A DNA stretch of 64,000 bases from Desulfarculus baarsii DSM 2075 (GTDB taxonomy: Bacteria; Desulfobacterota; Desulfarculia; Desulfarculales; Desulfarculaceae). The stretch covers positions 1,143,501 to 1,207,500 of the forward strand of contig NC_014365.1 of assembly GCF_000143965.1 (NCBI RefSeq). The letters are read 5' to 3'. Both the position numbers and the translations under genes were made by a program. Shown here in pieces: positions 18,247 to 45,242 of this stretch. The notes under the pieces were generated by a model. The model had not been told where the DNA came from. It did no database searches and saw only the letters and a program-made list of their open reading frames with translations. Positions within the stretch are counted from its first letter, which is position 1. Each line of letters opens with the position of its first letter.

Positions 18247-18323
<77 letters not shown>

Positions 18324-42757: not shown

Positions 42758-42802
42758 TTGTCTTTAGCCCGTAACCGCGCTGTAACAAAATCCTCCTACA
42801 TT
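42758..42802 (+). promoter_or_regulatory. PHO box and -10 of pstS
   Basis: Three half-sites at 11-bp spacing: TTGTCTT (42758), CCGTAAC (42769) and CTGTAAC (42780), close to the PhoB consensus CTGTCAT. A -10 TACATT (42797-42802) lies ten bases after the last half-site, as in E. coli PhoB promoters. The leader to pstS is about 70 bases. Further upstream, a perfect TATAAT at 42668-42673 lies in a T-rich stretch. Confidence 0.75.
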
Positions 42803-42878: not shown

Positions 42879-43709
42879 ATGCGCAAAAAATCTCTGATCA
42901 AGAGCGTGATTTGCCTGGCCGCCGCCGGCGTTATGCTGCTTGGCGGCGCGGCCCTGGCCGCCGACAAGATCAGCATCAGCGGTTCGACCACCGTCCTGCC
43001 CATCGCCCAGAAGGCCGCCGAGGTCTACATGAAGACCAACCCCGGCGCGGCCGAGATTTCCGTTTCGGGCACCGGCTCGGGCGACGGCCTGAAGGCCCTG
43101 GTCGAGGGCAGCATCGACATCGCCGACAGCTCGCGGGCGGCCAAGGACAAAGAGATCAAGCGGGCCGATGAAAAGGGCGTCAAGCTGGTCAAGCACGTGG
43201 TGGCCCTGGACTGCATCGTCCCGGTGGTCAATCCCGCCAATAAGGTAACCGGCCTGACCAAGGCCCAGATCAAGGACATCTACACCGGCGCCATCAAAAA
43301 CTGGAGCGAGGTCGGTGGCGATGACGGCCCCATCGTGGTGATCAGCCGCGACTCCAGCTCGGGCACCTTCGAGGTGTGGAACGAACTGGTCCTGCACAAG
43401 GAGCGCGTGCGCCCCGACGCCCAGCTCCAGGCCAGCAATGGCGCGGTGGCCCAGGCCGTGGCCAGCAACAAGTACGCCATCGGTTACGTGGGCATCGGCT
43501 ATCTCAGCAAGGATCTCAAGGGCTTGACGGTCGACGGCGTGGCCGCCTCCAGCGACGCCGCCCGTGACAAGAGCTACCCGGTCAGCCGCGAGCTTTACAT
43601 GTACACCAACGGCGAGCCCACCGGCGCGGTCAAGGCCTTCATCGACTTCGTGATGGGCGCCGAAGGTCAGAAGATCGCGGGTGAAGAAGGGTTTGTCCCG
43701 GTTCGCTAA
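42879..43709 (+). CDS. pstS: Periplasmic phosphate-binding protein
   Basis: A 276-residue binding protein with a Sec signal peptide (basic MRKKSLIKS, hydrophobic core, likely cleavage after Ala27 in ALA-A). ISISGSTTVLPIA near residue 31, SVSGTGSGDGL, ISRDSSSGTFE and NKYAIGYVGIGYL are PstS phosphate-loop features. It captures phosphate for PstCAB. ATG 42879 is preceded by AAGGAG. A PHO box upstream shows PhoB control. A porin gene, not pstC, follows it. Confidence 0.92.
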   Translation: MRKKSLIKSVICLAAAGVMLLGGAALAADKISISGSTTVLPIAQKAAEVYMKTNPGAAEISVSGTGSGDGLKALVEGSIDIADSSRAAKDKEIKRADEKGVKLVKHVVALDCIVPVVNPANKVTGLTKAQIKDIYTGAIKNWSEVGGDDGPIVVISRDSSSGTFEVWNELVLHKERVRPDAQLQASNGAVAQAVASNKYAIGYVGIGYLSKDLKGLTVDGVAASSDAARDKSYPVSRELYMYTNGEPTGAVKAFIDFVMGAEGQKIAGEEGFVPVR

Positions 43710-43726: not shown

Positions 43727-43755
43727 TTGCCCGGGTTAGCGATTGGCTCTATAAT
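43727..43755 (+). promoter_or_regulatory. Strong predicted promoter of the porin gene
   Basis: TTGCCC (43727-43732), exactly 17 bases, and perfect TATAAT (43750-43755). The transcript would start near 43762, within the first hairpin listed next. Confidence 0.65.
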
Positions 43756-43760
43756 CTGAA

Positions 43761-43821
43761 CCATACCGGCAGGCGGGCACCTGCCGGTATGGCCAAAACG
43801 ACGCTAAACGTCGCTTTGGCC
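43761..43821 (+). other. Two tandem stem-loops in the porin leader
   Basis: CCATACCGGCAGG (43761-43773) pairs perfectly with CCTGCCGGTATGG (43780-43792), a 13-pair stem with a six-base loop. A second stem, GGCCAAA-A-CGACG with CGTCG-C-TTTGGCC (43791-43821), follows with one mismatch. Given the promoter just upstream, the first stem would be at the very 5' end of the mRNA, as in stabilised outer-membrane-protein leaders; an attenuator role is less likely because no T-run follows. Confidence 0.65.
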
Positions 43822-43860
43822 GTTTGATAGGGTTGGTTAACGGAAAAAGGAGAAAAAGGC

Positions 43861-45108
43861 ATGTATAAGTTTACCAAAATGGTCGGCGTCGCCGCCCTGG
43901 CTCTGGGCCTGGCCCTGAGCGTGGGCGTGGCCAACGCCGCCACCCAGGCCGAGCTCGAGGCGAAGATCAAGTCGCTGGAGAGCACCCTGAACACCCTGAA
44001 GACCGACCTGCATCAGGTCCAGGTCAAGCAGGCCGCCCCGGCCGAGGAAGTCAAGCTGCCTGGTTGGGTCGAGCGCATGAAGTTCAGTGGCGACCTGCGC
44101 CTGCGTTGGGAGTCCACCCGCTTCGACGACCTGAACAAGAAGTCCAAGGACGGCAACGATCGCCTGCGCACCCGCCTGCGCTTCGGCGTCGAGAGCCAGA
44201 TCCACGAGGACGTTGAGGTCGGCCTGCGCATGGCTACCGGTTCCGACTCCGACGGCACCAGCACCAACCAGACCAACGGCAACTACTTCGGCGAGTTCAG
44301 CAGCTGGGGCATCGACCGGGCGTACGTGAAGTACACCCCCAGCTTCGTTCCCCAGAAGGCCATCGACCTGAGCGTTGGTAAGGTCAAGAATCCCTTCCTG
44401 ACCTCCAAGGTGATCTGGGACGAGGACGTGGTGCCCGAGGGCGCGTTCCTGAAGGCCACCCTGTTCAAGGAGTGCAAGATTCAGCCCTGGGTGCTGGGCA
44501 CGGTCATGACCGTCTACCAGCCCGGCGAAGCTGACGAGAACATCTACGCCTACGCTGGCCAGATCGGCCTGAACGCCGACTTCGACGCCTTCAAGGCCGA
44601 GGCTGGCGTCAGCTACACCGACTGGCAGGACCTTGGCAACCCCGGCTACCTGCCCCCCGCCATTCACGGCAACCCGACCTACACCCAGGCTGGCAGCACC
44701 CGCATGAGCCAGTTCAAGGTGTGGGACTTCATCGCCAAGGCTAGCTACAAGTTCAGCGAGCAGGGCGCCGTCAACGCTTGGGGTCACTACGTGAACAACA
44801 CCGACGCCGAGGGTCCCTACAGCAGCGCCGACACCGCGTGGGGCGCTGGCATCGGCGCCAAGTACGCTCAGTTCGGCGCCGACTTCTGGTACAAGGACGT
44901 CGAGGGCAACGCCACTCCGGGCTTCATCTCCGACAGCGATTCCGGTTACGTCAACGAGAAGACCTGGGCCCTGGGTGTGAGCTACCAGGCGTGGAAGTAC
45001 GGCCTGTTCAAGGTCACCTACTTCGACGGCGAGAACATCGACGACAAGATGCAGGGCGCCACCAACGACTTCCAGACCCTGTTCATCGAGGCCATCTTCA
45101 AGTTCTAG
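43861..45108 (+). CDS. Outer-membrane porin with N-terminal coiled coil
   Basis: A 415-residue porin. A signal peptide (likely cleavage after ANA, residue 26) precedes a short coiled coil (LEAKIKSLESTLNTLKTDLHQ) and alternating beta strands rich in Tyr, Trp and Gly, ending in the terminal Phe used by the BAM machinery (EAIFKF). It resembles proteobacterial phosphate-selective or general porins. Codon use favours GCT, GGT and CTG and differs from its neighbours, as expected for high expression. Placement between pstS and pstC, with own promoter and terminator, suggests it admits phosphate; that is inference. Confidence 0.85.
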   Translation: MYKFTKMVGVAALALGLALSVGVANAATQAELEAKIKSLESTLNTLKTDLHQVQVKQAAPAEEVKLPGWVERMKFSGDLRLRWESTRFDDLNKKSKDGNDRLRTRLRFGVESQIHEDVEVGLRMATGSDSDGTSTNQTNGNYFGEFSSWGIDRAYVKYTPSFVPQKAIDLSVGKVKNPFLTSKVIWDEDVVPEGAFLKATLFKECKIQPWVLGTVMTVYQPGEADENIYAYAGQIGLNADFDAFKAEAGVSYTDWQDLGNPGYLPPAIHGNPTYTQAGSTRMSQFKVWDFIAKASYKFSEQGAVNAWGHYVNNTDAEGPYSSADTAWGAGIGAKYAQFGADFWYKDVEGNATPGFISDSDSGYVNEKTWALGVSYQAWKYGLFKVTYFDGENIDDKMQGATNDFQTLFIEAIFKF

Positions 45109-45149
45109 TCTAGGCTAGACCTTCGGATAGCCGGCCTTAATCGGCAATA

Positions 45150-45188
45150 ACGGCCCCGGGCGCGAGCGCTCGGGGCCGTTTCTGTTTT
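45150..45188 (+). terminator. Rho-independent terminator of the porin gene
   Basis: ACGGCCCCG (45150-45158) pairs with CGGGGCCGT (45171-45179), followed by TTTCTGTTTT. It separates the porin from the pstC operon; its T-run touches the first half-site of the PHO box. Confidence 0.8.
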
Positions 45189-45242
45189 GTCACGCCATTG
45201 TAACAATTCGGTCACTTGCCTGAAATCAGCCATGGCCAAAAT
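45187..45242 (+). promoter_or_regulatory. Extended PHO box and -10 of the pstC operon
   Basis: Four half-sites at 11-bp spacing: TTGTCAC (45187), TTGTAAC (45198), CGGTCAC (45209) and CTGAAAT (45220), matching the PhoB repeat. CAAAAT (45237-45242) is ten bases after the last one and can serve as -10. The leader to pstC is about 90 bases. Confidence 0.75.

Follow-up and report, generated by a model that had tools for sequence, protein, structure and literature searches.

Desulfarculus baarsii DSM 2075 has a genome consisting of one contig of 3,655,731 bases, and the window discussed here is a stretch of 64,000 nucleotides from it that contains a phosphate (pst) locus. The features of this locus all lie on the forward strand. 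An ORF at 42879 to 43709 matches PF12849 and is read as pstS, the gene for the phosphate-binding protein of the Pst ABC transporter. It is followed at 43861 to 45108 by the gene for a porin of 415 amino acids (PF16930, Porin_5), whose Shine-Dalgarno sequence AAGGAG (43847 to 43852) is predicted to be unpaired. Behind the porin gene lies an intrinsic terminator with a 14-bp stem and a T-rich tail (45149 to 45180), and from 45339 onward there are ORFs read as pstC, pstA, pstB, and phoU; these names, like that of pstS, come from the reading of the ORFs together with what we take to be the usual gene order. Pho-box-like direct repeats with a spacing of 11 bp are present both upstream of pstS (TTGTCTT, CCGTAAC, and CTGTAAC, at 42758 to 42786, with a score of 13/14 for two repeats) and upstream of pstC (TGTCAC, TGTAAC, and GGTCAC, found by eye at 45188 to 45215), where the consensus used is the one that we assume for the Pho box. 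The repeats at 42758 to 42786 are likely to be the promoter of a pstS-porin unit. As there is no terminator-like site in the gap between pstS and the porin gene and Pho-box-like repeats precede pstS, the two genes are likely to be present on one transcript.

The element of interest lies in this pstS-porin gap, an intercistronic region of the pst locus. According to the original prediction, the porin mRNA starts from a promoter of its own with a perfect 13-pair hairpin, directly followed by a second stem, and these 5'-terminal stems stabilize the mRNA. What was claimed about the sequence itself is correct. A TTGCCC motif (43727 to 43732) is separated by a spacer of 17 bp from a TATAAT motif (43750 to 43755), so that the sigma-70-like site as a whole covers 43727 to 43755. 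Five unpaired bases follow, and hairpin 1 starts 6 positions past the end of the site. Its stem is formed by 43761 to 43773 pairing with 43780 to 43792, with 13 pairs, no mismatch, and the 6-nt loop CGGGCA. The predicted start, about 7 nt past the -10 motif, is 43762 ± 2, and the arithmetic that placed it within a base or two of the stem is thus right. Hairpin 2 (43793 to 43819) indeed abuts hairpin 1 and has 10 bp, as 5 plus 5 pairs around one A/C mismatch, and the 5-nt loop CTAAA; two extra pairs, extending it to 43821, would require opening of stem 1. The energies of the two hairpins are -25.6 and -10.8 kcal/mol. For the 111-nt leader the folding energy is -43.2 kcal/mol, compared to -29.9 ± 3.0 kcal/mol for its shuffles (z of -4.41, with 0 of 200 shuffles as low).

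With loops of 3 to 10 nt allowed, every other perfect stem in the window is shorter than stem 1, and in 10 dinucleotide shuffles of the window no perfect stem of at least 11 bp was found. Six perfect stems of at least 13 bp were counted in a 400-kb sample of this genome. We also compared the pstS-porin gap with real gaps, using 79 co-directional gaps of 60 to 300 nt from 464 kb (the pstS-porin gap included), defined by gene calls from a rough script of our own rather than by the annotation. Among these, 35 contain two or more hairpins and 34 contain one. By its best hairpin the pstS-porin gap is in 29th place, by summed energy in 26th, and by energy per length in 37th. The leader is thus less striking when compared with real gaps than when compared with shuffles, and by hairpin energy alone the gap is unexceptional in this GC-rich genome. 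In a separate count, only 15 of the 59 strong hairpins in co-directional gaps (in the window and L090 to L109) have at least 4 T in the next 8 bases, and U-less intergenic hairpins seem to be common in this genome.

The relation between the promoter-like site and the stem is another matter. Four sites with 10/12 matches, counting both strands, are present in the window, and TTGCCC-17-TATAAT is one of them. Its TATAAT is perfect, and perfect TATAAT motifs are rare here: we found only 38 on both strands of 464 kb including the window, 7 of which have a TTG at 16 to 18 bp. The register of promoter and stem in this gap is unusual, since none of the 144 promoter-like sites (at least 9/12 matches) in the 400-kb sample has a perfect stem of at least 9 bp starting 3 to 12 nt past the -10 motif. 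Among the open-licence papers listed for the species, none is by its title about transcripts of D. baarsii, and no start-site map came up.

To place the hairpins in a wider context, we turned to relatives. In our collection the close relatives belong to the Desulfarculaceae, and one of them is Desulfocarbo indianensis. Among the 60 genomes searched, 14 encode a relative of the porin, the own genome included, and a pstS gene turned up in 19 of the 20 family genomes. From 27 pstS matches we obtained 21 family 3' flanks, leaving out six that are more distant pstS-like genes or fragments (L053 to L058). With a hairpin defined, for flanks and controls, by a stem of 8 bp or more and an energy of -9 kcal/mol or better, two hairpins are found in 16 of the 21 flanks and one in the other 5. 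At 13 loci in 13 genomes (again including our own) the porin gene follows pstS; two hairpins were detected at 10 of these loci and one at 3, and the sequences of these gaps differ and their folds are alike. At the five loci where pstC follows pstS, four have two hairpins, although the second hairpin of L033 overlaps the Pho-box repeats, and one has a single hairpin. The next gene is not assigned in three flanks; two of these have two hairpins, and the third, L051, has one hairpin, which is weak and lies 82 nt away from the pstS stop codon. One flank (L046) ends at a contig edge, in an apparent porin start. Pho-box-like repeats occur upstream of pstS at 12 of the 21 family loci, a count for which some upstream stretches were short or missing. 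Outside the family, we examined 11 pstS loci from 30 matches in other families of the class. A comparable pair is present at one of these (L079), four have gaps too short to test, and six have weak, single, or no hairpins. As only one of the 11 loci has such a pair, the element is not general to pstS but a feature of this family and perhaps of near ones.

The conservation of the stem, whose failure would have spoken against the original prediction, was found at the level of structure. In an alignment of five close relatives, 5 of the 23 pairs have changed on both sides with pairing kept, compared to a mean of 1.2 in shuffles, with 1 of 500 shuffles as high, and to 0 or 1 when the structure was slid along the alignment. 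Overall, 90.4% of the alignment cells pair. Further pair types show no excess over shuffles (189 of 500 as high). When the five aligned rows were folded whole, four formed both hairpins (the first is shortened in G010) and one (G017a) formed the first only, and in some GC-rich rows the two hairpins instead pair with each other. There is good but not overwhelming support that it is the structure, not the sequence, that is kept across the relatives, as five sequences are few. A DNA operator was set aside, because the sequences of the arms differ between genera while pairing persists.

Several known kinds of elements were searched for. Rfam, at the gathering score, found only a tRNA in the window (18250 to 18323) and no match for the hairpins, and a search of a phage collection gave no match. 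In its own genome, the leader finds only itself, its inverted repeat, and three short weak matches, which indicates that at this search sensitivity it does not belong to a repeat family. An intrinsic terminator was rejected, as none of the 37 pstS-flank hairpins in the set (which leaves aside the second hairpin of L033 and the hairpin of L051) is followed by a T tract of at least 5 T in 8 bases; such tracts follow 11 of 67 hairpins in the control gaps. The absence of T tracts in the pstS flanks fits structures that are meant for read-through.

The hairpins may still have no role at all and reflect the strong folding of GC-rich intergenic sequence, and the ranking of the gap among the 79 gaps would agree with this. 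For the family flanks we used as a control 50 co-directional gaps of 75 to 185 nt from the genome of the window, the pstS-porin gap included and the strand being unsettled in 8 of them. At least one hairpin is present in 43 of the 50 gaps and two or more in 21, so a single hairpin after a gene is ordinary in this genome and hence not telling. Compared with their own shuffles, 9 of the 21 family flanks have a z above -2. On the other hand, z is below -2 in the other 12 and negative in all 21, against 14 and 35 of the 50 control gaps, respectively. A pair of hairpins, each at -15 kcal/mol or better, occurs in 12 of the 21 flanks but in only 5 of the 50 control gaps, although the window's own pair is not among the 12. 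The hairpin pair after pstS is therefore enriched relative to the control gaps, with test values that are only a guide, because the flanks are related and the control is one genome. Together with the compensatory changes, the two hairpins in most family flanks, and a perfect 13-bp stem of a length not reached in shuffles, this makes mere background folding improbable. If the pair has a role, it could be that of an attenuator, at which RNA polymerase pauses or partly terminates after pstS, conceivably in a U-less or Rho-assisted manner, lowering the expression of the porin or of pstC. Strong GC-rich hairpins shortly after a stop codon, with a structure that is kept, would suit such a role, and 4 T in 8 bases are found after 4 of the 37 hairpins, among them hairpin 2 of the window; hairpin 1 has no T tract on its 3' side. 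However, none of the 37 has a T tract when 5 T in 8 bases are required, and we regard attenuation as quite unlikely, if less so than background folding.

The stabilization of the porin mRNA proposed in the original prediction also requires discussion. In Escherichia coli, a 5'-terminal stem-loop keeps RNase E from the 5' end of the ompA mRNA, and the porin mRNA could likewise start at hairpin 1, from its own promoter at 43727 to 43755, with RNase E kept off. The evidence for this is a perfect TATAAT in a site with 10/12 matches and a spacing of 17, a predicted start at most 2 nt from the stem, and the rarity of both the motif and the register; if the promoter is used, the resulting mRNA would begin at the stem as in ompA. 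Unlike in ompA, the stem is kept in relatives that have neither the promoter nor the porin. Looking in the gap and in the final 40 nt of pstS, we found a sigma-70-like site (at least 9/12 matches, spacer of 15 to 19) at just 1 of the 13 pstS-porin loci, that of the window. Hairpin 1 starts 52 nt past the pstS stop codon in D. baarsii, further than in 18 of the 20 other family flanks, which leaves space for a promoter, but at L037 and L041 it starts only 15 and 13 nt past the stop codon, respectively. An element of the ompA type would be expected to stay with the gene for the outer membrane protein, but the hairpins are also present where pstC follows pstS, with at least one at all five such family loci. 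In addition, a transcript probably starts upstream of the stems, given the Pho-box-like repeats in front of pstS. The stems, their adjacency, the register with the promoter-like site, and the conserved structure are thus supported, but the tie to a porin promoter is not, and the link between promoter, stem, and porin would be, at best, peculiar to this species, where a second start at about 43762 may exist. That the pair serves as a 5'-terminal stabilizer of the porin mRNA seems unlikely to us, with attenuation less likely still.

The explanation that we favor, with some but not strong confidence, is that the hairpin pair acts as an RNA element between the two cistrons of a pstS-porin transcript under Pho control and caps the 3' end of the pstS mRNA, in the way of malE-malF. 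U-less 3' hairpins at gene boundaries in E. coli are reported to shield upstream operon genes from 3'-to-5' exonucleases, with malE as the standard case, and 5' hairpins protect the papA mRNA of E. coli after cleavage by RNase E (PMC5927463). Both at the pstS locus and at malE-malF, of the malEFG operon, hairpins lacking a U tract lie between the gene for an ABC transporter's binding protein and the next gene. We liken pstS to malE because it encodes a binding protein and comes first on its transcript and because its hairpins have no U tract; a stable hairpin between genes in the same direction, as in a 3'-protective element, is present after pstS. The differences from malE-malF are that in Desulfarculus the next gene encodes a porin, that Pho-box-like repeats also precede pstC, and that protection is here a prediction from sequence. 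We infer a course of events that involves co-transcription, Pho control, decay protection, and an effect on protein amounts. Starting at the Pho-box promoter in front of pstS, transcription would pass the hairpins into the porin gene and end at the terminator at 45149 to 45180. When the downstream part is cut or decayed, the hairpins would stop 3'-to-5' exonucleases, and the pstS mRNA would outlast the rest of the transcript. The binding protein would then be made in excess, as in malE-malF, and judging from its role PstS may well be needed in excess. At loci where the porin gene comes next, processing would also place the hairpins on the 5' flank of the porin mRNA, and they may have a second role in capping the 5' end of this mRNA, be it processed or started separately. 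The comparison with papB-papA is relevant here, as cleavage in the gap could leave the mRNA of the downstream gene protected by a hairpin on its 5' side. Such cleavage is hypothetical for the pstS-porin gap, and in contrast to papB-papA the RNase E motif of E. coli (RN|WUU) is present 5' of hairpin 1 in only 5 of the 19 pstS flanks tested and is not a family feature.

What looked like a 5' stabilizer of the porin in one genome turns out, on comparison, to be an element found after pstS throughout the family. With it, intercistronic hairpins kept as structures behind the gene for an ABC binding protein would be extended to the Desulfarculaceae. A doubtful but conceivable extension is that in D. 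baarsii a new promoter arose at the foot of an old 3'-protective pair, so that one element would cap both the 3' ends of pstS mRNA and the 5' ends of a separate porin mRNA. If this is true, porin output would escape Pho control.

Some minor observations were made in the sequences that were compared. Two tandem copies of the porin gene follow pstS in several relatives (L007, L008, L009, and L010), and Pho-box-like repeats, read by eye, are present upstream of the second copy in L010. In the 3' flank of pstS in L044, a GC-rich palindrome occurs twice within about 200 to 260 nt after pstS and is perhaps part of a repeat family. In the genome of the window, the longest perfect stem of the 400-kb sample has 21 bp and a 7-nt loop (L093:305-353), and two perfect 12-bp stems lie 2 nt apart, about 5 nt past an apparent stop codon, at L105:11453-11516.
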